This document shows, piece by piece, positions 19,222-58,716 of a DNA stretch of 64,000 nt. Position numbers and translations under genes: made by a program. Position 1 is the stretch's first letter. Each line of letters starts with the position of its first letter. The notes beneath the pieces were generated by a model. It saw nothing but the letters and a program-made list of their open reading frames with translations. It made no database searches and was not told the DNA's origin. The stretch comes from Siphonodentalium dalli (lineage: Eukaryota; Mollusca; Scaphopoda; Gadilida; Siphonodentaliidae), in contig CP136063.1 of the NCBI GenBank assembly GCA_032622095.1, forward strand, positions 87,893,980 to 87,957,979, in the 5' to 3' direction.

Positions 19222-19310
19222 TACTTTCTATACTAAATGAATTCTCCCTCATTTATACAAGTATAGATTAATAGTTTATTATTTTCCATTTGGAGTGGCG
19301 TATATAATAA

Positions 19311-35160: not shown

Positions 35161-35728
35161 TTTGCTCCATAACATAATCCTTGCGGCAATTGGCCAATCA
35201 ACGCGCAGCTCTGGTCACCTTACGTCTGTTCTCGGTTCTGATTGGCGAGCAAGCAGTATAGCCTTTGTCGTTCCCCAACAGAAAGTAATCGCACCGCAGT
35301 GCTTTCATGACTCTCGGCTACCGAACGAAGTATTAGAGAAGTTACACTTTGAAAATCTAAACATCGTGGAATAAACCTGAAGAAATGTCTTAACACTTAT
35401 ATCTCACACCGCTGAAATCTCGTTTCAAGACGAGGAAAAACTCCGTTATGATAATTAAAGCTGTCATTCAGGATATGTAGTTCGTGAAATACTTATGGAT
35501 TTTACAGAAAAGTGAAATACTCAGCATGGAATATGACAGCCACACGTGCGGAATATTAGTTATTTTCTATGGAATAACTGCCCGACAGAGATAGGAAATT
35601 AATTTTGGATATGACGTTTGGTCTGGTGTGAATAGTACCACAGTTGTGAACAAATTCCCATTGATTCAATCAGTCAACGACAGGTGTTTTATAAATTTCG
35701 ACAGATGAGTTTGTGAAACCAACTGACC
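35161..35728 (+). promoter_or_regulatory. Likely Wnt promoter / 5'UTR with three CCAAT-box cores
   Basis: ATTGGCCAAT at 35189-35198 carries CCAAT cores on both strands and a further ATTGG lies at 35241-35245, 480-540 bp before the start codon. GC content rises locally. CCAAT pairs are common in metazoan promoters (NF-Y sites, established); the transcription start itself is not located. The 94-codon frame 35090-35374 covers this stretch and has no motif. Confidence 0.4.
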
Positions 35729-35802
35729 ATGGATATAAAACCGGCTCATTTGAGTTTAGTTTTAGTGTCGATATTTCTACAGAATGTCCATGCATCATGG
35801 TG
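35729..35802 (+). CDS. Wnt: Wnt gene, exon 1 (signal peptide)
   Basis: A 74-base exon too short to appear as a long open frame. ATG at 35729 has an excellent context (GACCATGG) and an in-frame TGA at 35714 closes the frame upstream. It encodes 24 residues plus two bases: a Lys/His n-region, the hydrophobic core LSLVLVSIFLQ, then NVHA (probable cleavage site), S, W and the first two bases of another Trp codon. The donor TG|GTAAGT at 35803 is a consensus match. The SW-W ending at a phase-2 junction is how exon 1 of many Wnt genes ends (family knowledge). The phase exactly fits the exon at 58436, giving ..HASWWYLGMSS... The link between the two exons, 22.6 kb apart, is inferred from phase and peptide continuity. 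The product is a secreted, lipid-modified signalling ligand for Frizzled receptors. Confidence 0.82.
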
Positions 35803-38696
35803 GTAAGTTCGAAGTTTATTAACCCTTCTGATTTCTGATATTTTAAATACGATCATATTTTAAGGGTAATTCTGAGTGTAATACAGATAAAGGTCGCAAG
35901 GACGATGTAAAGCCCATGCAATACAAAAGTAACAAGTTCAATTTCTGCTGGCTATATATATAAGCATCAGAGACTCCCTAATTTCTCAGTTTTGTTCGTA
36001 TTTAATTCATTTGGACCATGAAGGACCGATTTTTAGCGATGTATAGGCAGCCAGGCGTGATGAACGTGAGAGCGATAAATAACTTGCATACCTGTCATAA
36101 TTAAGGGGAAGATCCGGTTTAAAGGTTTGGTATTGATGATATTGATCAATATGACCATACGCTATAAGTGTAATTAACGACACCGGCTAAACCACATGAA
36201 ATGGCTGTCAGTTGGAAATGTTCTGACCACTGCATCGGAGAGTTGGGTTGGAATTTTCCGACCAGTTGTAAACTTTGGGGTAATAGTATACATACCTTCA
36301 TTAAAGGGACAGACCCTGTTTATAGCTTGTATGATATTAGTTAAAATTAGTATTACACATCAATGGGAAACTATATATTTTCGAAATATATTTCACATGA
36401 CAAGGATATTATGTTTCTAGACGATTGGTTTCAATGCGAAAAGATCATTTGTTTATATATATTGATATTTTAATAATAAATATATATCATCGTTTTCCGC
36501 CAAAATCGACTGCAACGATTTAGGTTTCGTTGTATAATCGGCGATATTCTGTCGGGAGAATATCTTATCACTATTTGATTATCTATATGTATGCCCAGTC
36601 ATCGACCACGTATATATATCGTGTATTTATATAAACTGCGCAAATGCCATAATGTCTAACCGGGTCCGTTGAAGAAAATCATGAATGAATTGATCAAAAA
36701 TATTTATCATAGTACAAACAATCAAGCCAGATAGTTGTTCATAATTATGGAAGCCATTGCCAATAACGTTTCCAGTCGTCGTCAGTGCGAACTTTGAGAA
36801 GTTTTGCCACTCAAACCGGGCCCATGCCGCCCGTCCTTTTCATGCAAATATATATATAGGAGTACTGTATGGGGCCTCTGCGCTCAATGAAATACATATT
36901 TCGTTTGTTTATATATAGTGACATACAGTACAGGAACATCGGCAGGTAAATTACATTGAACAATCAATGAATTTAATAGATCTCGGAGTATAGGGAATGT
37001 ATTTTGAACCTTCATCGTACTTCACGATGCGAGCTTGAATTCTATACAAGGATCTATATTCATTATGGCGTGATCGATTTGTGTATATATATTCAGGATG
37101 TGCCTCAGTCGTCAGCTATATAGTCCTCGTATTTTTAAAGGTGTTTAAAATCGTCGAACCTTTAACACTCTCAATTCATTTACCAACCAAAATGTACAAT
37201 AACATATATAAGCTTTGATAATAAAGCAAGGGTATCCCACCAAAATAAAGAATTTTTGTACTAATTACACAACATTCCTGATTCCATTAAATTCTATCAA
37301 CGCACTCAGTGCGCGTTTATTCGCGATTGATTTATAAAAGCAACTTAGTTGTGAATTTTAGAATTTCGAGAGATGTAGCCATGAAATATTCGATCCATGT
37401 CTATACTTATTTCCACAACTTTGTATATATATATATCAATTTTTTTTACTGCAATTGTCGCGAAAATGATATTCACAATTATTGATATATTTATATGTTG
37501 AAAAACACATGCGGGTTACATACTGTGCTTCTCGTCATTATGGAGGTGATATTTCGAGTTCATATCTCGATTCAGAACCATGGAAATTACGACCGTAAGA
37601 TATGTTATTCTTTATGTAAACAAGGTGCAATTATAATTAATACTTAAACGTATCCAAATTACCGACTTTTGGTCCTTTTTAATCTCAGCGGTCGTTACGG
37701 GGTGATATTTCGATTCATATTAGATCTGGATTAACCATGAAAAGTAAGATCATGAGATAAATTAATCCTTGTATAAACAAAGTGTATAATTAATACTTAA
37801 AACGTGTCCAAATACCGACTTTTGGTCTTATTTTTTATCCCAGTGGTGGTACAGGTGTGTATACAGTGTCATGTGGTGCAAAATAGTAAATCCCATTAAA
37901 ATAGCTACTATTGTTTGATTGCAAATAATTCAATCAAAGACTTAGTTGATTGTAAATAGGTAAATCACACAGGTAAACACGGCGGCCGCTTCATACTTTG
38001 ATTAATTAGATTACCTGTGTTACGTAACCGCTGGCTCAAGCCGACCACAAGAGGTACATTTTCTTAAGTTCCGCAATAAAAAGTACTTAATTGTATAGCA
38101 CCACATGGTGAGAAAACTACAATTAAAACTCTGAAATCACAAAAGTTAAATGCGTGCTTTCTCAGCTGTATACGACCTTTTATTTTGAGGTTATTCGGTA
38201 CATAAAAGAACAAAGAATGACTTGGTTTTCCCTTTCATTAAATAAATGGACAGAAACGCGAAATGCGTGTTTAACAGTTAAAGGCTTCAGCGGTTAATAT
38301 CCCATATATATGTCACAGAAAAGGCCCATTGTGAGTGAGTGCACATGTAAACTGACTTCCCCTTTATATGTATGATTGGCAAAGAATATAGCTATAGACT
38401 TCAACTTTTTATTCAGACTTTTAACATGTGTACATTTATAAGACTGTATATAGTAATAACATATTTACAATGATAAATAAGTCACGTGATATAGGACAAA
38501 TCTGTCCTAATTTGGAAACACCTTCCCAGAAAGCCACCGAGGGCACAAACCCGGTCCGCCAACGGTAATGTTCAGGAACAGTGCATGTGCCCTCGTGTAT
38601 ATATATAGGCCTAATAATTAATTACGGGTTAAAATCTCAACCAACTATTTTTGCAAAGATACGTCTGTCGAACCCATATTGTATGGCTGATGGTTT
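35803..38696 (+). other. Wnt intron 1, first part; tandem duplication at 37540-37850
   Basis: No repeat element of the families above until 38.7 kb. A segment of about 155 bp (GGTGATATTTCGA ... TTAATACTTAAA, CCGACTTTTGGTC) occurs twice in tandem at about 37543-37695 and 37699-37850, with about 80% agreement by eye. Frames are short. Confidence 0.5.
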
Positions 38697-38716
38697 GGGG
38701 GGGGGGGGGGGGGGGG
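38697..38716 (+). repeat. G20 homopolymer
   Basis: Twenty G residues in a row, able to form a G-quadruplex in single strands. A second run of 12 G lies at 39375-39386. Both are inside Wnt intron 1. Assembly length of such runs is often unreliable. Confidence 0.9.
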
Positions 38717-39677
38717 TTGTGGCACAACAAGAGAGATATGTTTGGTGGATGTTCAGACATAGAACAACATTTGGAAAATATATATAGGTATATAGAGATT
38801 GTTCTGGCATTATAATTTCTCCAACCCCTTTCGTTTTTAGAACCAAGATTATTGTGTTCAGAGCAACAGCTGAACATGTTCATATATATATATAATTGTA
38901 CTTCGAGTCAAATTAGTCACAATCCCCTCCACGTTTGTAAATTTCTTAACAGCGTTTATTGTTAACCTCCATCAAATTAGGAGACCTTGTGTACAAATGT
39001 CAAATATATACATGATTATTAATATGTTGCAAATATTTATTCTATATAATTACAACATTAACCTTATTGTGGCGACGCCATCTCACACGCATACGACCAT
39101 GCATGCATGGCTAATTATATTTTCAAGTTTCAATGTCAGAGAATTTGGAGGTTAACCAGTAAGCTATATGGACGGGTATACAGAGAAGCCTCGGAATATC
39201 AGTTGCCCTTTATGCAGTGGGAAAATCAAAGTATGATACCACCGAATGGTGACAATCTATATATAGTCACACGAATTCATTTCGACAAATTCATGAAATC
39301 TCATTAACGTTTTCAACCACAGGTGACCTGTTGCAGGAATATGGCATGAACATACTTCTATATGAGGGCAACGTGGGGGGGGGGGGCAAAACACGTTGAT
39401 CTTAAAGATGCATGCATATGGAATTTACATATTTAAATAAGCATCATATGCATAGTAGCGAGACAGCCTGGCAACTGTTCCTTTTGTCCTTTACCGTGCA
39501 GGATGTGGTATTAATTTCCCGGTATGCTTCATTAAACGCCACCAAGAAACAAAAAACAGCCAATATGTCACCGAAAGAACTGTAAAAGTGTTATATTGTC
39601 ACGAAAACAAATGTATAGCAAGTTCATGCACTCTTTGGTCGATAGTTTAAACTTGCGCCAACGTTCGACATACAGTG
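38717..39677. other. Intronic, nothing recognised
   Basis: AT-rich with short frames and the 12-base G run at 39375. Confidence 0.3.
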
Positions 39678-40092
39678 AGGGTCGCCACTATAACTGCGAC
39701 CAAGTTTTCCAACTCCATTAATTCCAAATCGTTTTAATTCCATCGCGTGTATCATGATTTCTTTCGTTTGCATAATAATAAAGACACCGTCAGTCTACTA
39801 TATAGTACGTTGCCATAATTCCCCATAGTTAAATTGACATACGATACTATCTTTCCTCATTGTTTCTACCACTGGCGTGCATGGTGGCAGCGGTTAACGC
39901 TACGTCGTTTATCCACGTCAGACCACGTGTCGGAACATATTAAAGACATAATTATATTATGTCAATTTAACTGGAGAGACCAGGAGATGATATCTTTGTT
40001 ATGCAAACGAACGAAATCATACAACACACGGTTGAATTAAAACGATTCAAAATGAGTTAGAAACATGATGGTCGCAGTTAGCGACGACCCGC
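39678..40092. mobile_element. Inverted-repeat element with about 100 bp degenerate arms (family J)
   Basis: GGGTCGCCACTATAACTGCG and TTTTAATTCC ... TTTCGTTTGCATAA at the left are mirrored by TTATGCAAACGAACGAAAT, GAATTAAAACGATTC and CGCAGTTAGCGACGACCC at the right. The interior, about 220 bp, is non-coding. No target duplication recognised. Confidence 0.7.
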
Positions 40093-41627
40093 ACTGGGTG
40101 TCGAGCCATCACAGCACCCAGTGGTGTTGATACATGTACCTGCACGCAATGCCTGATTTAGTTCAACAAGTTTGTCTCTTTTTATGACGTTTATTCTTTG
40201 CCTCTGATTATAAAGTTAAATTGTGCCCCATTGATCCTCATTTCGAACAGTACCTATATATATATACATGTATATATATATTTGGTCATGCAAAGTGGAC
40301 CAGCGCCCGATAATGGCTACCAAATCGCCAACATTTTCTTCTGCTGCACTCGTTTGCTTCAGGAAAATAAATAATGTCACCCTATGTTGCGGGTATCTAA
40401 CACACAGATGTTTGTTTTTAAGGAATGGAAATTGTTATTTCAGCCTTATCGGCGGCTGAAACAGACGAAGTGTTCTCGGAATCTATACAGTCAAAACAGT
40501 GATGTTGAATTTGTCTTGAATTATGAATTATATTTATCTTTTAACATGTGTTTCCCGCGTTTCATGCTCTGATTTATTGGATATGCGCAGTTTCTCAAAT
40601 AAATCGCTTGAAGTATCAGATACTGAAGAATTTTATAGGTTTTATGTGTCATGGTTGCAATCACGTTTTGCAATGGGAATGTGCACTGTTCCCCTAATGT
40701 TATCGCACACCGCGTACGTCATGTCACCACGATTTTTCAATGAAGGGTTGTTGGCAGCTTATTCTATATGCAATATACTTTACTTTAATTTAAATTCACA
40801 TGTAGACCAGTGTATATATATAGACAATGTCTATGGGGCTTTTGTGCTAAAGTTATCTGAACTGCTCGCTGGGGCACCACCCTCCACATTTCCATTCTGA
40901 GAACGATAAAAATCCTGTCCGTCAAGTATAACATAACACACCAAGGGGAGGGTGGTTAACATAGTGTTTGCACAAGTCTGCTAGTTGATTACCACAGGAA
41001 ACCTCGATGGTACGGCCATGGGACAACATTGTCTGTTTCCCTATACCTTGGGGGTATGATCAGATTTCTTGTTTCCTCGTATCATTGACAATTTCAACCA
41101 AATTTGGCAGCCATAACAAATAGCTCTTATTCGGAAAATATACAATGTATGCAACTCGATCTCTATAACTATGACATTAGAAGTTAATTATGACGAGACA
41201 ATTCCAAAGTCGTTGCATGTTCCATCTTATATTACGAGAAAGTTAGAATACGTTGTCGCTACCAGTTACAACAGCTGACAAGAACCCCTCTTTTTATAAT
41301 GAATTACAATATTTTCAATAAGATGGCAGAAAATTGCTATGAGATTGTGAGAAGTGTTTGTGATGGCCAGGTTACCTGTTGGGTTTTGTCAACCGTCTAT
41401 CTTGGGTATATCATATTAATGATAACGGGACCAACATTTTCTTATGAATTAAGATGACCACACAAGTTTATAATGAAACCAACATATAATTTCTAAACTG
41501 AAAATGAGGTCCCCGTTATCGACGACCCTAAAAGGGCGTTGTGAGAAAACAAGATATACGAATATTAAAACAATTGAACTAAAGTTCAGAATCCATCAAT
41601 ATATATTCAAGGCAAATATATCATAAT
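40093..41627. other. Intronic; 125-codon plus-strand frame at 40523-40900 unassigned
   Basis: The frame 40523-40900 has several hydrophobic stretches but no repeat-family copy, motif or convincing splice sites. A short segment at 41505-41545 (CGACGACCCTAAAAGGGCG) resembles the repeat at 53340-53380. Nothing else. Confidence 0.3.
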
Positions 41628-41723
41628 ATTATGAACACAGGTATTTGGCACAATAGACCCCAACACCCCATATATGTCTTTAGGGTAGTGGGGTCTATTG
41701 TTCCAAATACCTGTGATTATGAA
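41628..41723. mobile_element. 80 bp hAT-like MITE with exact 8 bp target duplication
   Basis: Body 41636-41715: CACAGGTATTTGGCACAATA and its near-perfect reverse complement around a short loop. ATTATGAA is duplicated exactly at 41628-41635 and 41716-41723. Ends CA...TG with an 8 bp duplication fit the hAT superfamily (inference). Confidence 0.85.
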
Positions 41724-41853
41724 CTGTTGACTGGTCATGCAATCCCAAACATGAACGTTTGAATTATTACTGATGCGGTGGGGAAAATTTACGAAAATGC
41801 TCATCGTTAATCCTTTCTTTACTAAATATACTCATTGATGAGTAGTTCCCTTA

Positions 41854-41926
41854 GGAAATGTTCAGATAATAAGTTCAACAGCCGACCTATATGTCGTTTA
41901 TTGAACTTATTTTCTGAACATTTACC
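41854..41926. repeat. Family N foldback, copy 2
   Basis: GGAAATGTTCAGATAATAAG with the mirrored TTGAACTTATTTTCTGAACA about 30 bp later. The best-preserved copy of the family. Confidence 0.8.
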
Positions 41927-43014
41927 ACCATGCAATAAATAGGAATTATTCTGCAACTGCACGCATGATATGCTCGACTGTCTGCCGTCTTCTGAGATTT
42001 CCTGAACAACCCTTTCATATAAATAATATACCATTTCAGTATATACGTTATAACTGGATGGGAGAGTCCATTCAGTATATAAAGGGTTAACTCTGACCTT
42101 TGACGTCACTCGCCATATTAAACAATGAAGGACTTCCACTTGATGAATTGGCTTATTTTTACTCGACCGAAGAGAATAAGCGCATATGAAATATAGTTGT
42201 TAGTATAAGTAAAATAATGTGTTTGGGTTGGCAGACCAGCATGAGCTAGTCAATAGGAGGAACATTTAAAACACCGCCGGAAAACAAATCAATCATTATT
42301 TATGTATACGCAACACGAATCTGTAAAAGTCTTGATATAAATATGCCTACTTATCATTAAATGATAAAACCTATATGGCGGGCCTCACCTGTATTGATTG
42401 CATAGTTTATAGAGTTGCAGACTCCTAGCTTTTATTACAAAATTCTAACTGCGAATGAATTCGGCTAACATCGTCAATCTTCGTAACGTACACGTAAACT
42501 GCAAAGTTGAGTTCAGTGCCCTGCTACGCTGGCCTGACCACTGCCATCACGTACATATATACGTAATTAAATATAACAGTGTTTATTTAAGAGTTTTGTC
42601 GGTTACGATTCAGTTTGATTTGAGCTAGCCAATTTCCACATGAATATGGACAGTTCGGTTTCGCGGAATAATTCCGAAAAGAAATGAAAATAATATTTTA
42701 AACCTCTCAAATGTATTATAATCCATTGTTTTTGTCGTCTCTTAATAATTGCTCAGATTATACATACAATAAAGATGATGATTTGTTAAATTCAATTTTT
42801 TTGCCAGATAGATCCAGAGAAATTCTTTGTTGAAAATCTCTTGCCATTTTTGGTTGGATGTATGTAAAACGTGCGTCTCCCCCTTAATAACGAGAGGGGA
42901 ACTTTCAAAAAGAATAACAAGATAATTATACTAGAACTTTAAAAAAATAATAACTACGCTTTACGATTTAAAATTTTGATTTGAGATACTAACACTATAT
43001 ATTTAGTACATCGT
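41927..43014. other. Intronic, nothing recognised
   Basis: Frames and motifs absent; AT-rich. The stretch 42500-42660 resembles 34200-34330 (GTTCAGT.CC.TGCTACGCTG; GTCCATATTCAT in opposite orientation), so one more diverged dispersed repeat may be present. Confidence 0.3.
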
Positions 43015-43330
43015 TCTTATATTCTGCCTTAGAAAAAAAATCTTGGAACAAGAAATATATCTTTCATTTGAGAAACCATGTTCTTAATAAGAAAATGGTT
43101 TCTCAAATGAAATATTTATTTCTTAACAATTTCTTGTTTCAAGATTAAATCTCATATTTGAGAAACCTATCTCTTGTCTTTTGGGATTTTCTTATGTTCT
43201 TTATTTTGCAGACTTAAGGGGTACATTTTCTCCAAATAAGATTTATTTTCTTAATAGTTCTTGTTTCAAGTAACTGTTTTCTTGTTTCAAGTAATTGGCT
43301 TCTTATTAAGAACTTATTTTTAGAAGTGTA
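43015..43330. repeat. Foldback repeat rich in CTTGTTTCAAG
   Basis: ATCTTTCATTTGAGAAACCA and TGGTTTCTCAAATGAAATAT form an inverted pair around TGTTCTTAATAAGAAAA at about 43060-43115. TCTTGTTTCAAG recurs four times to 43320, alternating with TTATTAAGAAC. Looks like a MITE interior plus ends; target duplication unclear. Confidence 0.65.
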
Positions 43331-43780
43331 TATTAAGTACATCGTTCACAATGATCTTATATTCTATTCGGCCAATTGATTGATGATAGTAGGTTTCATA
43401 TAGACATGGTGGCTGTATGATACAACAAACATATAGTTGACTGAGTGTCTCTATATTTGAAAAAACAGTTTTGGTACAAATCGAAAAATTTAAGCCCTAT
43501 CCGTTTGGCGGTTAGGGTTTCACGGTTACAGTTTAGAATGTGAGCATAACTTGGTGATATAGTACCCTAACTGTAATCGTAGATGCTAACCGCGAGTTTG
43601 GGAAACCTCTCGAACAAATCTTCAACTATATACGGTGGACAAAATACAGAGGGCGTTCTATGTTATTCTTTCCATGTACTTGACTACATAAGTAGTCGAC
43701 AGCTTATTGTTGCATTTAATGGCATCCATAGAAGTAACTTTATTATCAGATTTTTTTTATATTGCCGTTGTTTCTTGCAG

Positions 43781-43995
43781 TGTCAATCAATCTATACCGC
43801 AATATTGTCTCAATCTGCCAATTTTGTTTGCGCCACAGGCGAGTCGCGTCATTTGAACAACGTGTTGCACCCTCAAGAAGATCGAGTATTGACTTTTCAT
43901 ATCTCTGGTTGTTATGAAGCCTTGCAGGTATCATGCTGCCCTCGCCTCGACCCACATGTGTGTTATGTCTGTATTCACGACCATATGGTTAGATT
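43781..43995 (+). CDS. Candidate internal exon of an unidentified gene, inside Wnt intron 1
   Basis: A strong acceptor (pyrimidine-rich TTGCCGTTGTTTCTTGCAG ending 43780) and a strong donor (ATT|GTAAGT at 43996) bound 215 bases with one open frame that ends in a stop just past the donor. The peptide has seven cysteines (..ANFVCATGES..TFHISGCYEALQVSCC..HVCYVCIHDH..), suggesting an extracellular disulphide-rich domain. The GCYEAL stretch faintly recalls the Methyltransf_FA (farnesoic acid O-methyltransferase-like) domain, but I would not assign it. The open frame continues upstream to 43583, possibly by chance. No partner exon was found. It could be a nested gene, a transposed exon or coincidence. 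Confidence 0.35.
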
Positions 43996-44366
43996 GTAAG
44001 TTTAATTATCTCCATGTTTAAACTGAACCTACCTGACATCGCTGTTGGCTAGCGTGTATTATTCTTACACGAAACACCTGTAATTACCGAGTAAATTAAT
44101 TTGGAGAATTTCGCGGCGCTTCGTTTTTACAATATTGTCTATTTACCAGACTAATTGGTGATTTATAAGGTCATGTCATCATCATACATTCCTCGGATAT
44201 AAACGTTAAAATCCATCGCAGTCTTTCACCAACAAACCGTGCTCATAATGTCGAAACGTACATATCTGTCGAACTTAAAAACTGTATTTATAGATATAGG
44301 TTCCAGGCTATATTTTACGAAACACATTTTGATTTTGATTTATAGACTCTAAGACTTGTGTATAAA
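43996..44366. other. Intronic, nothing recognised
   Basis: Short AT-rich spacer before the family B copy. Confidence 0.3.
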
Positions 44367-44414
44367 TCTAAAGGTACAACATCCGATGCGATGGTTCCCA
44401 TATCATCAGATTCC

Positions 44415-44445
<31 letters not shown>

Positions 44446-44785
44446 TTTCTTGAAATGCCACTTCAGTTATCAGGATCGATTCATTGCCAAACAAAATAAT
44501 GCTAACCACTGTCAATTATAGTATAGCATTTCCCCCCAAAAAGTTTAATATATTAACACTTTGTTCAACGCAATTTTGTATCGAGAGTATGTTGGTCGGC
44601 ATTCGCCGAATATTTTCCAGGCCGCCAAATATTCCAGGTTGAGAAAAATAGCAGATTTAAAAAATCGATATCTGATAACTCTTGAGCTTTGATATGTAGG
44701 TTCCTCGACTCGAATCAAATATTTTTTACTCCGAAGCCACAGAAATGATAATTTAGGAGCGTTAATTCGGATTATGCATCTTTAA
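44367..44785 (+). mobile_element. Family B element, copy 7, with AAC microsatellite
   Basis: Left end CTAAAGGTACAACATCCGA, right end CGGATTATGCATCTTTAA. An (AAC)11 run at about 44414-44446 expands the ACAACAAC tract seen in other copies. Opposite orientation to copies at 18768 and 22602. Confidence 0.75.
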
Positions 44786-45110
44786 ATAAGACGTTTTAGC
44801 CTTAGTAGATTATCTGGTTGAATATAGATATTTTACCCATAATTTGTTGTTTTTAGAGCAAATGTCGAATATTTTTCCTACTTTTTGACAAGTTTTTGGA
44901 CTGAAATGATCATCAGTGTGGAAAATTTTCTGACAATAAGAAGTCAGGTTGGAAATTTCCAACCGTCGAAAAGCTGGTGGTACCAGTTGGAAATGTCCAA
45001 CCCAATGGAGTGTGCGACTGTGCGTGGAAGTTCCCGAACTAGAACGTGTGTGTGTCTAACAATGTAAATATATAATAATTGACGGGTTTAGATTGAACAC
45101 TTCCAACTTG
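44786..45110 (+). repeat. Repeat S copy
   Basis: GAAATGATCATCAGTGTGGA, GGTTGGAAATTTCCAACCG and GGTACCAGTTGGAAATGTCC match 18400-18475 and 58880-58980. Confidence 0.5.
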
Positions 45111-45541
45111 GCATCAAGCAGCATTAACAGACTATATAATACTCCATGGTGTGTGGCGAGAGATCACGTCCAATGGTAGTTGAACTATAATTTATTTATA
45201 AACTCCTGCATAACATCAAGTATGTATTGTTATGAACTAGTAGCATCCTAATTTATTACTGGCTATAATATGGTATCTTTCGCGTCCCAGTGAAGAACTA
45301 TGGAGGTAGGACTAAGGACACCCAGCAGCAGTGTATTTGGGCTACATTAAAGAAACGGTAAACGTTGGCGGTGGGTATTGCTGTTAAAATAGTCACATTC
45401 GTTAAAACCGCCATAAATAGAAAGAATATTATATTATAGCCAAACCTTGCTCCTATCCCAATCATAAATATCGCGTAAATTGCATGTTATTGCCGTATTT
45501 CTATTCTGTGTTATGTAAGCAATCAGTACGTAAAGTGTATG
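45111..45541. other. Intronic, nothing recognised
   Basis: No frame or repeat of note. Confidence 0.3.
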
Positions 45542-45731
45542 CGATAAGCAAAACACTCAACTCCGGGGAGACCCCACTACATACGAGAACTTTGGTTAGA
45601 ATGGGCTACCAAACATACCGGTATAGCGCTCGTTAATCCTCGCCACTCAACAATCCGTTGTTGAATGGGTCACTTTGAATCACTCTCCTAAGAAGAAAAA
45701 ATAGCCACGGTGTTGAGTGTTTTGCTTATCG
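45542..45731. mobile_element. 190 bp inverted-repeat element (family O)
   Basis: CGATAAGCAAAACACTCAAC at the left and GTTGAGTGTTTTGCTTATCG at the right are exact 20 bp inverted repeats. The interior contains ACTCAACAATCCGTTGTTGA, another palindrome. No target duplication could be read. Confidence 0.8.
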
Positions 45732-46722
45732 ATCACTATTTAAGTGCTGTATATAAACAACAAACACTCGGCTCACACAAAGTGCGTTTTGTGGATAATA
45801 TCATTATACTATACTATAAGTATATTCTTGAGGAAATTTTCATAATTTGGTAACTGTTATTTCTAAATTAAGACCTACAACGAAGGCCATCCGTGCCTTT
45901 AAAAGATGGGGTGCAGTTGGAAATACTAAGTTGGACGTCCCTGCTCTTTGTGCTGTTCCAACTACAATACAGGCTCCTGAAGTTTGAATGTTAACAATAA
46001 TACAGGCTCCTGAAGTTTGAATGTTAACCCATAAGACAAATCGTGAATAGCACAATAATTACTGAGAGGTGTCAGTGTCAGTCAGTAGTTTTCAGAAGAT
46101 AATGTAATCATACGTTTGTTGAACACACGCCAAAGTTATCGTCTGGCATTATCTTTATTGTTTGGATTTATTAACCTTCCCTCAACTTCGTTTGTTGAAG
46201 TCTGGGTCGACAAGAACGATTGCTGTTCAACTTACTTTCGACACCGCTCACTTTTACGTACTTAAAGTAATGCTTGGCATCCACGTATGTACAACAATTA
46301 TACTGCCATGGCTTTCATTACTCTTAAAATGAACCTTCGATCGCGACATGATGCCAGTGGCCGACCAGTTTCCAACCAGTTTCCAAAACTGGTTGGATAG
46401 ACAATAACACAACAACAACAACATCATCATCATCAACAATAACAACCCGATAATGATTCACGTCCAAATTCATGAACCGACTGAATTCATCATAAAACTA
46501 GTATTAGGGTTGCATGATGATGTAGGTCTCGCCAATTTCCATGTGTCACCTTTGACAATTATAGCTTCGACTAAATGGCAGGTGGATTAAAAGAATATTG
46601 CAATTGGTGGCACGACAGAAACGCTGTGCCCATACACGGAAAGAGCTTCTTAAAAGCCTTTTTTTGCATCAATGGCATGGTAACTGAATGTAACATCATA
46701 ACATAATGTTATACTTGAGAGT
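45732..46722. other. Intronic; short tandem duplication at 45962-46028
   Basis: ATACAGGCTCCTGAAGTTTG followed by AATGTTAAC occurs twice in a row. AAC/ATC microsatellite at about 46408-46445. No gene. Confidence 0.4.
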
Positions 46723-47440: not shown

Positions 47441-47760
47441 CCCAAAATATATATTAGAAGATAGCGCTGGTTATACTGATTCACATAAAATATCAACAGG
47501 GACGTGGCTAGAAGTTATCATTTGGGGAACACACTGCGCCTCCTTGAACTAGACCGAAATTCGCAAGGCCAGGAAAAGCCATTTGCGTCACTGTGTGAAA
47601 CACCCCCAAACCACATCCCCTATCGCCACCTTCCTGAGTATCACGAGTGTCCTTTGCTAAGCTGGCCCATCTGCATTGTGTGAAGCACCCTCAAACCACA
47701 TCCCTGTCGCCATGCTCCTGGGTATCACGAGTGTCCATGCTAAACTGGTCCATATATATG
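47441..47760 (+). repeat. Repeat S relative containing a two-copy tandem of about 90 bp
   Basis: CAGGGACGTGGCTAGAAG opens it at 47500. AAACCACATCCC, TCGCCA.C.TCCTG and GTATCACGAGTGTCC recur at 47610-47650 and 47693-47730. Confidence 0.5.
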
Positions 47761-48648
47761 CATTTGTTTTCCCAAAATCCACAACTGAAAGGGTTATAGG
47801 CACATGACAGACAGCATTGTTGTGACAACACCCGACATTTGCAATAATACACGATTATCGCGCTTGAAAGCAGAACTCAATAGATGGAGATTACCAATAC
47901 AAAACCGATCCCAAACCCAAGCAATTGGACAGTCTTATTTCATTAGTGTCGCTGTCCTCCATGAAATCTAATTAGTTAAATAAACTAATGCAAGGCGTGC
48001 TTGCCCTTACATACCCCCACGGCTGTTTATATTGCTAAACTGACCACAAAGGGACGTAAGTGGCACAAAGTTGGGGTTCTTGTCAGCATTGTCTAGTTGA
48101 GTGACCGTTCGGTTTAGTTCATGTTGGCCTTCATATTTGACCATTGTGCATGTCGTTGTTGTATGCTCCAACAATTGCAACAATGCCTTTGAAAACCGTG
48201 GCTATTGTTAACAAACTCTTGCCTAATCCCAATTGTGACTAACACTACGTATATAGCAACAGGCTTATAAATACATTCCACCGATGATTAATATACTGTA
48301 CAAACTGCATGGTGGCAAACGTACTTCAGATCTGAATGCCAGTGTTATATAATCATGGCAATTCTTGATTAAGCGATACTAAAATTAGGTCAACATCTGT
48401 TCAGATGCACTGTAAAAAATAAATGTTTAATTCTTGTATTGGAAGTCATGCATGTCAAATGGTGCATATTCATCTGAAGTAGCGTCGAATTTGTGGAATG
48501 GTTGCCATAAAATATTGGTTAGTATGTGTCAATTTTGTGTCCATTGGTTTCAGTCTGTATATTCTCCAATACCGCTGGATATATTGACAGTGACACAACC
48601 AAGTAGCAACCGCAACTGCATGAACGTGAAACAGAGTTTTGAATAATA
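47761..48648. other. Intronic, nothing recognised
   Basis: No frame or repeat identified; 48434-48646 is open for 70 codons without a motif. Confidence 0.3.
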
Positions 48649-48871
48649 CGCCTTGTCAGTGAGTCGCGACCATATTGGATCCATCCAGCCCTGTTCCGTT
48701 TTTTGTAGTGCTACATGTCAAAGTTCTGGAGTAGCATTCCAAAAAATAGAGCTTTGGAATATTCATAAATTCCATATATGGAATGCTACTCCAGAACTTT
48801 GACCCGTAGCACTAAAACAAAACGGAACAAGGCTGGGGGATTCAATATGGCCGCGACTCAGTGACAAGGCG
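48649..48871. mobile_element. 223 bp foldback MITE (family A, copy 1)
   Basis: CGCCTTGTCAGTGAGTCGCG at the left and CGCGACTCAGTGACAAGGCG at the right are inverted; the complementarity continues through CATATTGGATCC, AAACGGAAC, GTGCTACATGTCAAAGTTC and AGTAGCATTCC, so nearly the whole element is one hairpin. Another copy is at 58116-58367 and a half copy at 12609-12698. Confidence 0.85.
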
Positions 48872-48893
48872 ATTGTGACATAAAAAGCAAATG

Positions 48894-49045
48894 CGTAATA
48901 TATATGTGTTACTCCGGCCGTAATATATATGTGGTACTCCGTCCGTAATATATATGTGGTACTCCGGCCGTAATATATATATGTGGTACTCCGGCCGTAA
49001 TATATATGTGTTACTCCGGCCGTAATATAGATGTGGTACTCCGGC
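48894..49045. repeat. 25 bp tandem repeat, six units
   Basis: CGTAATATATATGTGGTACT followed by CCGGC, repeated six times with a two-base insertion in unit 4 and G/T variation. Starts 23 bp after the family A element. The 125-codon minus frame here is a translation of it. Confidence 0.9.
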
Positions 49046-50953
49046 CGTTCAGACTGAACTTGAAACACTGCACAATTGCATTCAAAAATATGGCCACTAG
49101 CACTATCCACTTCAACTAGAGGGCTTGACCCTGGAAACACATTTCGCGTCAGTATTAGGTTCTGGATTACGCTATAAAATCTTAGAGTGGTTGATGTACG
49201 AGAAGATTTATAGCGCTGATACTAAGTGGTTATCATACTAAACAGCGAATAAAAAGGCCGTTAAATGCATACAAGTATAGCAATCATTCAGACGATATTG
49301 CCACTGTTATCGGTGTCTTCGCCGACCTTGTCTGTCAGGAAGGAGTGAAATGCGGCGCTGATCTGCGCACTTCCTGTCGTATTAAAGTCATACGGTACTT
49401 AATGGTGTATTCGGGGTTCCAGACAATTTTTACTATTTATGCTTTGCTTTTTATTCACATACTGGTGCATAAAATAACACGGGTTTGAACAAGAATTGCA
49501 TGCTACCTGCGTGAGTGACACTTTTATGATATTTATTTTATTCAATTATAGCATATAGTTTTTGACGTTTTAGAGGAGCAAACATAATTATTTTGTGAAG
49601 TTTCCAATAACCAAATTACTTTTCTTTTCTATTTACAAGTCTGGTGCTCTGATTTATTTGTCGAATTGGTTTTTCATCATTTTTCCCCCAATGAGATAAC
49701 TCGATAAGTGATGTTAAATTAGACCTTTATGTGTTGTTGTAACTGGAGGTCTGGAACCATGGTGTGTGGCAACTAGCGTTCATTTAAAGTTATGGACACA
49801 ACAATGTTGAGCATTTTTTTTAATGGAAAAACTCCCTTTCAAAGAGTCTATTATCGGATGTGCACATGGAGAGAGCTATATATAGGGGATAGAGTTGTCG
49901 ATTTGGAAGATTCCACATTGCTGTCTTGTCAACAATCAACACGTGTGTTTCTGACAATTGCATCGGGAGAGTGGCACACACGTTTTAAGCCCCTTTGATA
50001 CGTCCACGTCCGAATTAATAATTGCCCCCTTAGAGAAGTTCCGTGTGCACACCTCCCCTTGACCTGAAACTTTTCGACATGAAGAAAATCACTAATATTG
50101 CATTTTATTCTACCGAAATGTAATTATTCCACCAAACTTCTAGTATCTCCTAGCAAATTTCCAACTTTCGTTGGTTATATACGCGAATCCTCACAAAATT
50201 AGGTCACCATTTGACCATTATGAACGAATGAAGCACCGACTAAAATATATACACATATACACGTCACTGTTTCTTCAACAATATAGAGTGCGTCTGTGCT
50301 TTCGACATTTGCCGACCTGTCGATTGTAAAAGTGTTGGAAGCAATTACCTGCGGGCAATCCTGAAACAAATATTTCTGAATTCTTTATTGAGTCTGCGCA
50401 TCGGAGCGAGTGGTCAGAAATACAATTACATTAGGAAGCCGACGGCCTGCACGGCCGATTGAGCGCGACCACAGACAAATGAGTTCGGTTTGATTAATCC
50501 CGTCGTCGGCATCTGTCAGTCAGAATGGCAGGATAATAGAGTTACCTATGGAGGAACTTGTGGAATGAGTATCACGAACTAAGGCAATTTATCATCGATG
50601 TAATAGACCAGGACAAACACCTTGCCAGTACTGATTATTTCTGGCCAGTAAATATAGACAAAAAGTATTTTTGTGTAGGCGAGGAAAATGGGTTATGTAT
50701 TGTGGTACATTAATCCCGAGGAGAACATAGTTATATGACAAATAAATCAACAAGATACATAATAACTAAATAATAACCAAGAATGCAAGCAAGCAAACAA
50801 ACAAACAATGCGAAAAAGAACTAAAATTTAAATGTAATGTACAAGGAACCATTTCAAGCAGACTGTATTAGGCTGATATTAACTTTGGGTTGACATTTTC
50901 AACAGTAAACTCAGGACACACATGCAGTCGAGGCGATTGTAATTGGATCAGCT
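49046..50953. other. Intronic, nothing recognised
   Basis: About 1.9 kb without a recognised repeat or coding signal. The 68-codon frame at 49792-49998 has no motif. Confidence 0.3.
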
Positions 50954-51354
50954 TTAACCCTTTACCCAACAGAACGGCCCTGTGCCAATGCATTCTCTTA
51001 TATATGCGAGTCGACCATAGGTCGCCTCGCATATATAAGAGAATGCATTGGCTTAACACATTAAAAATTATAAAATTGTTAAAGAATGTAAGAAAAAATG
51101 GTAAAAAGTGTTAAAAAAAGATTTTTGTTTAGGCCAATGCATTCTCTTATATATGCGAGGCGACCTATGGTCGACTCGCATATATAAGAGAATGCATTGG
51201 CACATGGCATAACTGTAACTATCACAATGTGGTCAAGGAGCCGGTTCCAATGATACCCATATTTGTATGGTTCTATTGAGAAAGACCGAAGATATTTTAG
51301 GCTGTTGAAGCTTTATTTGGCCGGTTTTGGCCGGTTTGTTGGGTAAAGGGTTAA
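50954..51354. mobile_element. 393 bp TTAA MITE with two inverted 69 bp palindromes (family D)
   Basis: Body 50958-51350, flanked by TTAA at 50954-50957 and 51351-51354. Terminal repeats CCCTTTACCCAACA and TGTTTGTTGGGTAAAGGG (reverse orientation) fit piggyBac-type ends starting CCC (established for the superfamily). Inside, 50984-51052 is a 69 bp near-perfect palindrome beginning GCCAATGCATTCTCTTATAT, and 51133-51201 is its exact reverse complement, so the palindrome occurs in both orientations 80 bp apart. The right third has GGCCGGTTTTGGCCGG. No coding. Confidence 0.88.
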
Positions 51355-51651
51355 ATGCATGGGTCGGAAATGTCATCAACACCGTGTTCAAACCCTTGTT
51401 TCAACGATCAATAGGAATAAACAACAGTTTAAAAGTTGAGACCGGAAATAGAGTGAGTGTTTCTTGTTTTCAACAAGTGTTTGGTGAAATATAATTATGT
51501 AGTTTGTAGAAAAAAAATTGAATATTTTCCTTTTATTAAAAATAAAAATAAAAAGCACAAATGTCCATCAGTGAACGCTCAGACGCCCACGTTTCAATCG
51601 AAAGTGGAAAGTTTTCCGTCGTGGGTAGTAACCGGTAGTTGGACTACGCAT

Positions 51652-52193
51652 GTTCACGGCTAGATCATGTCACGAATCTCTACTCTGGCTAACGCCCGTG
51701 GAGATCATATTCCACCAGTACAAAACCTGGGAACTTTTTGGAAGTTTTGACAGGGAACCTTATAAAGTCGAAAAAATGATGTGGGGAATATATATCTTAG
51801 TTATTATCTGTTCCTTAATAATGTAATTCACTGTAGGTGAAGGTCCCAACTCGAAATTGCATGCTTTACTGTAACTTTTGGGAGCCGATACCGCAACAAA
51901 CATTCAATTAATTACTCAGTAGAAATTCCATAATTGTAAGAAACCCAAAGCAAAATCACTCACAAAGTCACTTAAATCATGAAATTTCGAGTTGGGACCT
52001 TCACCTACCGTGAAGTAGATTATTAAGAAACAGATAACAACAAAGTACTACATTCTCTGTGTTATTTGTTTCGATTGTATAAGGTTCCCTGTCAAAACTT
52101 CAAAAAGTTCGAAGGTGTTGTATTGGTGTAATATGATCCCTACGGGCGTTAGCCATGCATAGTAGAGATTCGTGACATGATCTAGTTCACGAC
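51652..52193. mobile_element. Family E element, copy 2 (524 bp), 9 bp target duplication with one mismatch
   Basis: Body 51661-52184 starts TAGATCATGTCACGAATCTC and ends GAGATTCGTGACATGATCTA. Flanks GTTCACGGC (51652-51660) and GTTCACGAC (52185-52193) differ at one of nine positions. Further inverted blocks: GGGAACTTTTTGGAAG, AAGGTCCCAACTCGAAATT and its mirror at about 51983-52010. This copy has about 215 bp more interior than 31086-31394. Confidence 0.85.
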
Positions 52194-52466
52194 AAGAGCG
52201 TGAGTATAAAATGAATATTAAGCACTGTTTGGTTTCAGCTGCGAAATCGTGGTGTATCCTTAGTTGCCCACACTTGCGACGTAAAAATCGTAGATGGAAA
52301 GCTAAGGTAGTCAATCACGTGGTTAACCATGACTCACGAAAAAAAAAACCCACGATATCCTCGATTCCTCATATGAGACGACGTCGCAATCGTGTGGACA
52401 GACTATCCACGATTTTGTCGGGCACGATTCCTCCACTTACGAATAGTTACGATTGAATATATAGTG

Positions 52467-53380
52467 TCAAACTCCATGAAGCATCCTCTCCGTTATCACT
52501 ACGATAGATCACTGCCACACAAGGATGGTACTTTGCGGACCGATACATGTATTTTTACGTATCATCGGAACTATATGTAGTCAACTATTATCTTATTTTG
52601 ACCACCACTGGTTTGCAATAATGCTAATTCTTTCGGCATTGATAAGAACAATATGAACTGTGCCAGACATAGACAATTTTAATCCTAAAACATAAGAACT
52701 AAGATCATGTAAGAAATCCTTACCAAATGTCCTTGTGGCAGTGGTATCTCAGCGGAGCGATGGGAGATAACTCTGCCTGGAGTTTGCGTTAGTGTGTTAG
52801 ATTGGAATGTTCAGTTGCAGTGTTTGAGGTGCATGTTGGGAAATTCCAAACTGAAGGGGTTGCAAACGATGTTCATTCAGGCGAACTTATATTTTGTAAC
52901 TAAAACTAAAGTAGGTTTCATTTACCGACGACCATAACGTGATGTTGTAAATTGTAATAAGACACAGTTTATAATAAAAGTCCCAAATTCCATGCAGCGC
53001 CCTCTACGTTATCACCGCGATATAGCACCGCCACAATGATGGCAGTTTGCGGACCGATACATCTATTATTACATATCGTCGGAACTATATTTAGTCACCT
53101 ATTATCTTATTTTGACCACCAAAAGTTTGTAAGAAATGTAATTCTTTCGGTATTGATAAGAACAACATGAACTGAGCCAGACATAGACAATTTTAATCCA
53201 AAAACATAAGAACTAAGAACACGTAAGAAATCCTTACCAAATGTCCTTATGACAGTGGTATCTCAGCGGAGCGATGAGAGATAATTCTGCCAGGAGTTTG
53301 TAAAAGTCCATCATTAAAACTAAAAAAGTAGGTCTCAATTACCGACGACCCTAACAGGGCGTTATACTAAAACACATGCA
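52467..53380 (+). repeat. Segment of about 320 bp present twice in direct orientation
   Basis: 52467-52790 and 52977-53303 share TCACTAC/CACCGCGATA, TTTGCGGACCGATACAT, ATTATCTTATTTTGACCACC, TAAGAACAA.ATGAACTG and GGTATCTCAGCGGAGCGATG at equal spacing (offset about 510). The sequence after each copy (GTAGGT.TCA.TTACCGACGA) is also shared, so the true tandem unit is about 420 bp. No frame; GGTATCTC ... GAGATAA can form a hairpin. Confidence 0.8.
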
Positions 53381-54240
53381 TGCAGTTTATAATCGAAGTC
53401 CAATAAAAACAAAATTACCCAGAGTTTGGAATTTTAGTCTTCAAAGTGAGTGCAGTTGGAAATTATAAGGTGAACACTCCCAAGAACGCTAGACCCTCCA
53501 ACCGCGTGGACCATGCATCATCTCTAGCCACATCTCCACGCTATAGAATGTAGAAAAAGTTAATAAAAAAAAGTATACAGTCAAACCACCTTGAAACTTA
53601 CGAAGCTCTATTATAAGAGGTTAGGATACGAGTTTTCGTGCTGGTGACCGAAAACCAATCATTCTTTTGGACACTTTACAAGATAACACCCGCCGACTTA
53701 CGCTTCTACGCCTCCAATTATTCGCGTATGTGAAATCAAAGGGAGAATTCGTCAAAATTTGATAATATATTTGTTGATAAGAATTTATGTATTTTTCCTC
53801 CAGTAAACCAACAGGCCAACTGCACCAGTGTTTGGTTTTGTTGAATTACATGCAGGGTTTAGACTGTCGGCAGCTGTTATCAAGCTTATACATTAAACTA
53901 TATGATTTGCACCTCCTGTTTATCAAATCTATAGTTTCCACGCTATAGTAATTTATTTGTTCACCTTAAGTGTCCACATGCGTAGATAACTAGTCAAGTC
54001 AACTGGATATTATTTTGACCCCGATAAATTAAAGGGACGGCCTTGCATGATTTGTTTTAACCCTTTCTTTGCTGAATGGATTCTCCCATCAATTATATAT
54101 AAAATTAAACACTGGAATAGTCTACATGTATATTGTCTATCTGGAGGGTTCTTCAGAAATATAGGGCCTAAGCATGGTAGACAGACGAACATATAATATA
54201 TATAAGTGCTCGAATGCACAATGATTCTTATTCATTTTTG
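53381..54240. other. Intronic, nothing recognised
   Basis: Contains a TTGGAAATTATAAGG segment reminiscent of repeat S near 53455. No gene. Confidence 0.3.
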
Positions 54241-54287
54241 GGAAATGTTCAGATAATAAGTTCATACCAACGGCCTAACTTATTATG
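54241..54287. repeat. Family N foldback, copy 3 (degraded right arm)
   Basis: GGAAATGTTCAGATAATAAG, then ACTTATTATGGG 30 bp later in place of the full mirrored arm. Confidence 0.6.
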
Positions 54288-54346
54288 GGAGACCAAATTC
54301 ACATTTATTAATTAATTGCGCTTAAGCATAAATAATGACGCTTATT

Positions 54347-55165
54347 AGCTCAACTTATTTTGTAAGTTTGAGCTATTGCCATGGTTTGGCGTCCGTCGTC
54401 CGTGTGTCCGTCAACAATTTCCTTTGGCGCGGGCTACAGGTCGTACCTTTGGTCTGACCTTTATGAAATTTGTCACGAATGTTGACATTGACATGTAGAT
54501 GGGAACGAGTCATTTTGGGTCATTTGGCCAAAAAACATGGCCGTTGGCGGCCATCTTGGATTTCAAAATTCAATCCATTGTCGCGGGCTACAGGTCGTAC
54601 TGTTCATCTGGGATCGTTCGGCCAAAAAACATGGCCGCCATCAGCCATCTTGGATTTTACTCTTTGCATGACTAAATCCTTTGGCGCGGGCTACAGGTTG
54701 TAGCTTTGGTCAGAACTTCATGAAATTTGTCATGGATGTTAACATTGACATGTAGATGGGAACGAGTGATTTTGGGGTCGTTCAGCCGAAAAACATGGCC
54801 ACCAGCAGTCATATTGGATTTTACTCTTTGCATGACTAAATCCTTTTGCACAGGCTTCAGGTCGTACCTTTGATCAGATCATTATGAAATTTGTAAAGGC
54901 TGTAGATGGGAACAGGTCATTTTGGGGTAATTCGGAAAAAAACATGGCTGCCGGTGGCCATTTTAGAATTTACTTTTTGCATCACTAAATCCTTTGGCAT
55001 AATCACGACATCCGTGATCCGATCATTATGAACCCTGTCATGAATGTTGATATTGACATGTACATCTAGTCTTACTTAGACATTTCAATTAGCACCTTTC
55101 CTACTCCTCCATTTACTGTCAACGATTAAATTATTCCCCTACCTAAGTTGAGCTACAGTGTCATT
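54347..55165 (+). mobile_element. Composite repeat with AGCTCAACTTA ends and a GGCCATCTTGG tandem core
   Basis: TAGCTCAACTTATTTTG at 54347 and CTAAGTTGAGCTAC at about 55143 are inverted termini. The core has about five units (starting near 54424, 54581, 54682, 54843, 54991) of GCGGGCTACAGGTCGTAC, TTATGAAATTTGTCA, TGTAGATGGGAAC and AAACATGGCCGCC...GCCATCTTGG. Unit length about 150-160 bp. Related blocks at 23613 and 62290. Confidence 0.75.
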
Positions 55166-56137
55166 GACACTTTCATTTATCATTGCGATAAAGCGCAATT
55201 GTAGTGATGCTGATAATATATAATTAGGGATTATCATTTTGTACACATACTCACAGTTGACTGTTGAGTACTCACTGCTACTCAGGCTAATTAAAACAGG
55301 TTAAAATTAGCCCAATGCTCCTCTTGTGTTGCTAGGTGATACACCAGGTCATGCCAATAGTTTATGGGTAGGTTAGATAGTAGTTACACTTATGCTTAAT
55401 TCATTTCGCTTAAGCGTAAATGTCCCATTTGTGCGAAAGCACAATGTGTGGTATTTGCACTTAAGCGCTATTATTTGCTATTATTTGCGCTTAAGAGCAA
55501 TTCATTAGTAAATGTCAATTTGGCCTGCCAGCATAACTTATTACCTGCAGCATTGCATAAGAGATCTACTCGTAATGATTATTTAGTAAGTATCTGCAAT
55601 GTAAATTGCTAAGTGGTAAGTATATCACTGAGCGGAAATATCATTCAAGAATTGACTCAATTCTTGTCAGAACTCCCTGTGAAGAACGATAACGCCTGGC
55701 AACAGATGTACTTACAGATTGGTGAAATGTTCAATCCAATGGTTCAAGATGATGCGTATCCATCTTTTTGTGCTATAGATATTTTTCAAGGATAAAATCA
55801 TCCATCTCTGGGGTCCAGCTGACTGTCCTCAGATACGACTAAGTATGCTGCATAGTTTTATAGGACGCTAATACTGATACAATACGGTATACAGTATCCA
55901 GAGTTCAAGCACCAGAGGCTTCTCCCCAGGTAACAAAACACAATTTCCAGAAATTTTGACCAACCTGGGAGGGGGTACTGTACTTCAACTCTATGCTGAG
56001 CCATTATCGTTTGCATAGGTCCCACCAAACATGTTTTATTTTCAACAGAAATGTTAGGTGTAATCAATTGTCTGTACTTTAGCCTCTTCGTACAATTTTT
56101 AAAGAGTTATGCCCCTTGGTTTGCACACACAAAACGC
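55166..56137. other. Non-coding with CGCTTAAG cluster (55385-55505); short coding-like frame at 55613-55795
   Basis: CGCTTAAGCG, CACTTAAGCGC and GCGCTTAAGAGC form a loose palindrome cluster related to 10081-10350. The frame 55613-55795 (..QELTQFLSELPVKNDNAWQQ..) looks protein-like but begins with GTG, has no homologue I recognise and no clear acceptor; it may be an exon fragment. Confidence 0.3.
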
Positions 56138-56571
56138 TTAAAGATGCATAATCCGAATTAACGCTCCCAAATTACTATTTCTTTGGCTTTGGGGGTAAAA
56201 AAATATTTGATTCTAGTCCAGGATTCCACCCACAAAAGCTCAGAGTGATCAGATATCGATTCTTGAATTTGTATTTTTTTTCACCACCGGTACATTTCGG
56301 CGGCCTGGTAAAAAGTTGACGAGCCGACGGTCTCGGGCCAAATTGCGGATGAAGAAGGATAACTCTAAAATCAAGTGACTTTGTGTTAGATATTTGACAA
56401 ACCGGCCAAATTTCGTTGAACAAAATGTTGATAAATAACAGGTTTTGGGAAATTTTATACTATAGTTGGCTGTGGTTAGCATTATTTTTGGGCATTTAAT
56501 CGATTCTGATAAGCGGCATTTCCAAAAAAAATTGTTGTTGTTGTTGTTGTTGGAATCTGATGATATGATTT
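56138..56571 (-). repeat. Family B element, copy 8 (right end lost)
   Basis: TTAAAGATGCATAATCCGAA to AATCTGATGATATGAT, with an expanded TTG run at about 56532-56551. The GTACCTTTAA terminus is replaced by unrelated sequence. Both minus-strand frames (82 and 113 codons) are translations of the repeat. Confidence 0.75.
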
Positions 56572-58115
56572 CAACACAAAAACAGACCATGACAGAGCGA
56601 ATGTCAATAAATAAGCTTCTTCCACCTGATAGAGCTATGTTAGATCTGAGAAATATTTTAAACAGAAAAGTTATCGTAGTTTCCTATAACTAAACACACA
56701 GAGTTGGCCTGCACTGAATACGAAAATCATGTTACGTATCCAAATTTTTCACTTTTTGTGAACTTTCCCAGTTTTGTAAATAATTAAATTTTCAAACCAG
56801 TAATGTCACATTTAACACAGCAGTAATGTCACATTTAACACAGGCTACACTGGCTGTTATGCCCCCAGATACATATTTGTCTATTGTGGCGACAGAATCA
56901 ATCAAACAAACATTAAATTTGAGATTTTCATTTAAAAAAAATCTTCAAAATTTCAGTGTAGATTTGAAATAACAGCGCAGCGCAGCCATTTTTGACAATA
57001 TCAACAGTTAACCACCCATGTTGGAAGATTTAATGAAATCAGACAATTATTGTGTTTGCTGACATAAGAAGTCATTGATTCAATTTCGCTTACTCAAATA
57101 TGATCACAGAATGAGTGGACCATATATGGAAATATGATTTTCTATAATCAAAAGCATTTGACTACTTTTTTCTCTTTAGATTTTGCAATGTTAAAGATTT
57201 TCATTGCCCGGGTATTAGCTATAAACGAAGATCTGGTTTAAAAGCCGTATTTCCCATGGCAATTTATGTGTTTCCATACCCTTGCCATGTAAATGGTGAT
57301 GTTTGAAAAATTGCCAATTTCCTGTCAATTTCCGAATATTTACATCGTGCCCAATTGCGTTCAAATTAGAAATCACCCAGACACTGCTCAGATGGAAGTT
57401 TAGCTAGCCGATTAGAGAGAGAGAAAAGATAAAGATAAGAAACGAATCGTGATTATTTTATAAAAAATATCCATCATTACAATGAATGAGACCTATATAT
57501 ATATATAGTCGTTTATTATTTAATGATTTATAGGGGTCCTTTTTATGACATTTTCTCGTTATTTGATCCTATGTTTGTGGACCATACACTAAATCACCTA
57601 AACATATTGATGAAGTAATAGTTGTTGTTTTATGTGTGTTTTTTTAGTTTTCATTAGCCAGATTCAGCCACACATACGTGTAACTGGTAACGTGTACGTG
57701 TAACTATGGTACATGCATTGCTGTCGAGATGCATTGTTGGTGGTAAAAGTCGCATGATTTTACGGCGCCAAACCCACCAAACTGTCTTCGGTGCGCGACT
57801 ACCGATATGGCAAATGCTTTATATTCTCCCATTGCATGTAGCGTTGATCGCTCATTCGGTCATTAGACTATTGGATAATTCCTCTTTGCTACGATTTCAG
57901 TATGCTACACGATGGACACAACACGCCTAACCGGCATGACCGTGTATACGTGTAGGCGAAATGGTCACCAAGATCATGTGACTTTCGTTGGGAATGACAA
58001 CACACGTTACAAGTTACACGCACGTCTGAACCTGGCTATTGTTGTAACACGAGCTTCTGGTGACATGGGGTACATGCATCTGCATTCTGCGAGTGAAAAC
58101 ATGTCGGTTCTAATA
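56572..58115. other. Intronic, nothing securely recognised
   Basis: The first 125 bases are open (..TERMSINKLLPPDRAMLDLR.. up to a stop at about 56695), coding-like but unassigned. ACGTGTAAC repeats at 57675-57700. Frames 57706-57930 and 57912-58145 overlap and have no motif. Confidence 0.3.
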
Positions 58116-58367
58116 CGCCATGTCACTAACTCGCGGCCATATTAGATCCACCAGGTCCGGTTCCCTGGTTTTAGTGCTACATGTCAAAGTTTTGGAGTAG
58201 CATTCCATATATGGAAGTCATGAATAATTAAAAAGCTCCATATATGGTAATGCTACTCCAAAACTTTGACCAGTAGCACTAAAACCAAGGAGCCGGGGCT
58301 GAAAGAATCTCTGAAACCATGGAACGGAGCTGGATGAATCCAACATGGCCGCGACCCAGTGATATCG
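58116..58367. mobile_element. Foldback MITE (family A, copy 2) next to Wnt exon 2
   Basis: CGCCATGTCACTAACTCGCG and CGCGACCCAGTGATATCG at the ends; internal mirrored blocks GTGCTACATGTCAAAGTTTT, GAGTAGCATTCCATATATGG as in 48649-48871. It ends 68 bp before the Wnt exon 2 acceptor, so it lies close to the branch-point region. Confidence 0.82.
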
Positions 58368-58435
58368 CTTATTGGTTGCATGGGGTTGGTCTTGATTGCA
58401 AGCCATATGTTGCATGTGTTATTTCATAATTCCAG

Positions 58436-58716
58436 GTACCTCGGGATGTCAAGCACATACCAACACATACCAGCTGAGATGGAGTACCAGAGAGACGCAC
58501 CGATTGACCCGATCAAAGAAAGAGTAGACTGTTCTAGTACCGAATTTCTTGCTCCCAAACAGAGGGAGATTTGTCGGAAAGAGGAGAAATTAGTGGACGT
58601 TATAAAAAATGGCGCAGCGCTGGCCATCAGAGAATGCCAACACCAGTTTCTACTTCGTCGTTGGAATTGTTCTACATATAACACATCAAATGTTTTCGGG
58701 AAACTTCTCGAGAAAG
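58436..58716 (+). CDS. Wnt: Wnt gene, exon 2
   Basis: Acceptor TTTCATAATTCCAG ends at 58435; donor AAAG|GTCAGT at 58717. The 281 bases complete the Trp codon of exon 1 and encode residues 26-118 of the joined protein. Wnt hallmarks: cysteines at about 57, 71, 92 and 103; the spaced motif FLAPKQREICRK; GAALAIRECQHQF; RRWNCST with an N-glycosylation site; a second site NTS; and VFGKLLEKG, which in Wnts is followed by TRE..F in the next exon. Entry phase 2 and exit phase 1 match vertebrate Wnt exon 2. By eye it is nearest the group with FGK/FGR after RRWNCS (Wnt4/5/7/WntA), with YLG..SS recalling Wnt4; the subfamily is not decided. Later exons (palmitoylated Ser region, C-terminal cysteines) were not found in the remaining 5.3 kb and should lie beyond the window. 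Acts as a secreted ligand in Wnt signalling. Confidence 0.95.

Follow-up and report, generated by a model that had tools for sequence, protein, structure and literature searches.

The window analysed here, a stretch of 64,000 nucleotides from the scaphopod mollusc Siphonodentalium dalli (contig CP136063.1), very probably carries on its plus strand the beginning of a Wnt gene of the ordinary animal kind, in which a first coding exon at 35729-35802 would be spliced over 22.6 kb to a second exon at 58436-58716. In this gene model, which we read from the DNA sequence, transcription would start somewhere upstream of 35729, and the 74-base first coding exon would provide a signal peptide with probable cleavage at NVHA|SWW. 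Splicing would then remove intron 1, a phase-2 intron within a Trp codon, and join the leader to exon 2, whose codons specify the N-terminal region of the Wnt domain including the RECQHQF..RRWNC core. The other exons would lie beyond 64000, and from what is known of the family the encoded protein would be secreted, carry a lipid and act as a Wnt ligand via Frizzled receptors. What results is a probable model for the 5' part of one Wnt ligand gene; it illustrates how phase, splice strength and the residues that a junction completes can lead to a short leader exon lying far upstream, while existing knowledge of Wnt genes is left unchanged.

The Wnt exon, its proposed first exon and their surroundings

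Exon 2 begins with the junction base G at 58436, directly after TTCCAG, and continues through 93 whole codons (YLGMSSTYQ and onwards) and one 3' base to 58716, where the phase-1 boundary AAAG|GTCAGT is found. When exon 2 alone was compared with the Pfam wnt family (PF00110), it matched profile positions 3-59 of 305 with an E-value of 1.3e-15 and 58.2 bits, the cut-off being 20.3. A phmmer search against the PDB returned Wnt-3a, Wnt-3, Wnt-7a and Wnt-5a at E-values from 3.4e-11 to 3.6e-10, with Wnt-3a as the top match (E 3.4e-11), and the matches to Wnt-8 were weak (E 0.33-0.82). Judged by the protein it encodes, exon 2 belongs to the Wnt family, and the Pfam and PDB matches bear out the first-pass annotation, which had called it unmistakably Wnt. 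The exon contains four cysteines; Wnt proteins have 22-24 conserved cysteines and carry their lipid on a serine in the motif CHGVSGSC. Donors, acceptors and hydrophobicity were scored with approximate weights rather than by SignalP or a trained splice model; on this scale the donor at 58716 ranked 17th of 3678 GT sites and the acceptor at 58436 ranked 68th of 3053 AG sites, so that the latter is decent rather than outstanding.

The proposed first coding exon (35729-35802, plus strand) consists of 24 codons (MDIKPAHLSLVLVSIFLQNVHASW) and the two bases TG, followed by GTAAGT. It runs from the start codon through the predicted signal peptide to SW and two bases of a second Trp codon, and its 3' end reads TGGTG|GTAAGT, a phase-2 donor that ranked 5th of the 3678 GT sites on the plus strand. 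The leader has a hydrophobic core by our simple score, and the NVHA|S cleavage site was picked by eye. The start codon lies in the context GACCATGG, with A at -3 and G at +4, in keeping with the earlier description of this context as near-ideal. A TGA at 35714 is in frame with the start, and no ATG lies between them. The three-codon upstream open reading frame ATG AGT TTG TGA (35705-35716, plus strand) is located 12 bases before the Wnt start and in frame with it, and would be relevant if the 5' UTR extends so far. The coordinates that had been assigned to both exons were confirmed exactly on the sequence, and they leave a proposed intron 1 of 22,633 bases (35803-58435, plus strand; GTAAGT...TTCCAG) with interspersed repeats inside. 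Ten open reading frames were scanned, and the four located in intron 1 matched no Pfam family above its cut-off, so that no nested gene was identified in these frames.

The gene probably continues past the end of the window, with an intron 2 of at least about 5.3 kb. When seven loose Wnt motifs were sought in all six frames of the window, six hits were obtained outside exon 2, and all were judged by eye to be due to chance: two of W.GC on the plus strand (48494; 63358, stop-flanked) and four of [SA]G[SA]C on the minus strand. The first-pass annotation had proposed to look beyond 64000 for a phase-1 exon starting with a TRE..F-type motif; the search covered the sequence up to 64000, and such an exon was not found there. 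From 58717 to 64000 the pattern [TS][RK][ED] plus an aromatic residue or Leu occurred at two places, neither of them after a phase-1 acceptor, and three open stretches of at least 30 residues behind phase-1 acceptors before 64000 contained no Wnt motif by eye. In non-animal collections, 3 viral-contig and 32 genome-contig pattern matches to exon 2 were obtained, none of which encodes a relative, and the string SWWYLG gave no match in a paper search.

The GC content of the window is 32-40% in 4-kb steps, many interspersed repeats are present, and neither a tRNA (ARAGORN) nor an Rfam match at the gathering score was found in it. A 428-residue open frame (13905-15188, plus strand), which lies some 20.5 kb upstream of the proposed Wnt leader exon, encodes C2H2 zinc fingers (Pfam zf-C2H2, seven stretches, E 1e-36). 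A palindromic unit, GGCTAAAGAGCGGTATACCGCTCTTTAGC, is repeated at 10384-10940, and an array of degenerate 20-22 base repeats on TGATATCA occupies 28393-29434. One interspersed repeat family occurs at 112-436, 18801-19223, 22637-22978, 56177-56595 and 63095-63281, one of these copies lying within intron 1, and a weak FLYWCH hint below the cut-off was seen at 56252-56683 on the minus strand. Another family, marked by ACATGGCCGCCA...CCATCTTGGATTT, is found at 23721-24104, 54420-54998 and 62337-62604, with several copies clustered within intron 1 at about 54.4-55.0 kb. A foldback-like 123-base inverted repeat with 94% complementarity and an 8-base gap is located at 60154-60407, in the presumed intron 2.

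The proposed exon junction and a possible start at 58380

As the first-pass annotation had stated, the acceptor of exon 2 needs two codon bases from upstream. The TG of the proposed first exon and the G of exon 2 restore TGG (Trp) and produce an SWW-YLG junction that matches SWW-x-LGM of Wnt-5a. When the joined protein was searched against the PDB, the Wnt-5a match reached query residue 23 with this segment aligned free of gaps (SWWYLGM against SWWSLGM), and its score rose from 43.3 to 46.7 bits, replacing Wnt-3a as the best hit. The gain of 3.4 bits is small, which counts against the model. Joining also lowered the scores of Wnt-3a (46.5 to 46.1 and 46.3 to 45.7 bits), Wnt-3 (45.9 to 45.0) and Wnt-7a (43.3 to 42.5), with falls of 0.4 to 0.9 bits overall in the PDB. 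The protein search with the joined N-terminus, which had been put forward earlier as a check, is thus in agreement for Wnt-5a, while the matches to Wnt-3, Wnt-3a and Wnt-7a were not improved. We also compared the protein with 11 Wnt segments, of which ten were provisional sequences, and scored exon 2 as its own 93 residues. In this comparison the first exon added 21 for Wnt-5a, 7 for Wnt-3a and 3 for Wnt-2, and added nothing for 8 of the 11 segments, Wnt4 included.

Translation could also begin at an ATG at 58380. The segment 58380-58435 (plus strand), with the leader MGLVLIASHMLHVLFHNS, is in frame and continuous with exon 2, its residues are hydrophobic, and no stop codon interrupts the frame between 58338 and the end of exon 2. 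The gene might then have two N-termini, an SWW form from a distal promoter (35729) and a form lacking SWW from a proximal one (58380), which would parallel human WNT5A with its long and its short isoform; we regard such a pair as highly improbable. It is very unlikely that translation starts from 58380 only and runs straight into exon 2 as an unspliced first coding exon, even though the excerpted text of PMC3832467 describes a form of human WNT5A whose alternative exon, 1beta, lies within intron 1 and whose start codons are in exon 2. Against this reading, the read-through leader gained nothing with any of the 11 Wnt segments, and the PDB matches were not extended and scored slightly fewer bits than with exon 2 alone. 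In addition, on our reading of the sequence, the T-rich run that precedes the acceptor would translate into hydrophobic residues in any case, and 58436 is the top-scoring AG between 58250 and 58500.

Candidate first exons and chance expectation

To the proposed first exon we compared all phase-2 stretches of at most 240 bases that run from an ATG to a donor scoring at least 5 upstream of exon 2, 31 candidates in total. A hydrophobic core was present in two of them, and one, 35729-35802, ended in Trp-Trp. Any gain against the Wnt-5a piece was seen in 8 of the 31; the gain was 21 for 35729-35802 and 7 for the runner-up. By these scores, 35729-35802 fits exon 2 better as a first exon than any other of the 31 candidates in the window. 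When the donor threshold was removed, 94 ATG stretches ended in TG before GT or GC, and the three with a Trp end had donor scores of 9.8 (35729-35802), 1.7 and -0.3.

Chance expectation was derived from 100 first-order and 100 second-order Markov sequences built on window positions 1-58435, and values are given below in this order per simulated sequence. Phase-2 candidates ending in WW occurred at a mean of 0.01 and 0.06 (about 58 kb per sequence), strong leaders with strong donors at 0.08 and 0.03, and the combination of a hydrophobic core of at least 2.8, a donor of at least 9 and a Trp junction at 0.04 and 0. Hydrophobic leaders as such were expected 3.03 and 3.53 times, and two were observed. 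We rejected a hydrophobic leader alone as proof of an exon: the reverse strand also held two among its 37 phase-2 candidates, and phases 0 and 1 of the plus strand held three each (3 of 31 and 3 of 36). Because such leaders are common in the simulations whereas Trp-Trp ends and strong donors are rare, the evidence lies in the junction and the donor, and the leader by itself provides none.

The frequency of chance leaders, and a candidate scan limited to the window with the further-upstream sequence outside it, speak for the possibility that exon 2 is spliced to another first exon, in the window or upstream, and that 35729-35802 is a signal-peptide exon that is foreign or arose by chance, but we give this very little credence since this one candidate combines the phase, the WW junction, a strong donor and a leader, a coincidence as rare in the simulations as given above. 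The model with 35729-35802 as first coding exon does not need a first exon outside the window.

Comparison with known Wnt genes

The predicted protein resembles Wnt5, as represented by human WNT5A, in SWW-x-LGM at the mature N-terminus and in the ECQ.QF..RRWNCST core, and it differs from Wnt-5a by about ten extra residues between LGM and the first Cys, seen as two 5-residue gaps in the alignment. When exon 2 alone was scored, the provisional human Wnt4 piece came first with 157, and the Wnt-5a piece reached 134; with the joined protein the values were 157 and 155, level in practice, these being mostly provisional segments too short for a tree. The Wnt4 segment gained nothing from the first exon, and its N-terminus reads NWLYLA, not SWWYLG. 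The provisional Wnt3a segment has WWSL and gained on joining, whereas the PDB matches of Wnt3 and Wnt3a did not. We do not file the gene as Wnt5 or under another subfamily. In human WNT2, WNT4 and WNT7A, the first coding exon ends close to the corresponding Trp, a point that we did not use as evidence.

Mature human WNT5A-L starts at Asn44 by N-terminal sequencing, and the antibody peptide NSWWSLGMNNPVQMSEVY was raised to that form, according to the excerpted part of PMC3832467; the predicted leader of the present protein ends in NVHA before SWW, at about the same place. The same excerpt reports that exon 1 of human WNT5A codes for two residues only (MK) and that intron 1 follows the second codon, whereas here 24 complete codons and part of a further one would precede the first intron. 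On this account, an intron position common to the present gene and human WNT5A was rejected. Intron positions are described as conserved among metazoan Wnt genes in the excerpts of PMC2959043 and PMC8220140, in which residue positions are not given. Among the literature matches listed, as far as their excerpts extend, human WNT5A was the one Wnt gene for which we found the first intron placed at residue level, and we found no published first intron at exactly the same place as here.

The gene start proposed here would be an ordinary one. One paper (PMC2518113) states in its title that longer first introns are general to the gene structure of eukaryotes. The excerpt of PMC8752766 gives lengths of 3,084 to 64,231 nt for cattle Wnt genes, mainly through intron variation, and that of PMC3832467 gives 6,061 nt for intron 1 of human WNT5A; because of these lengths, we think that a long first intron such as the one proposed here is not unusual for a Wnt gene.
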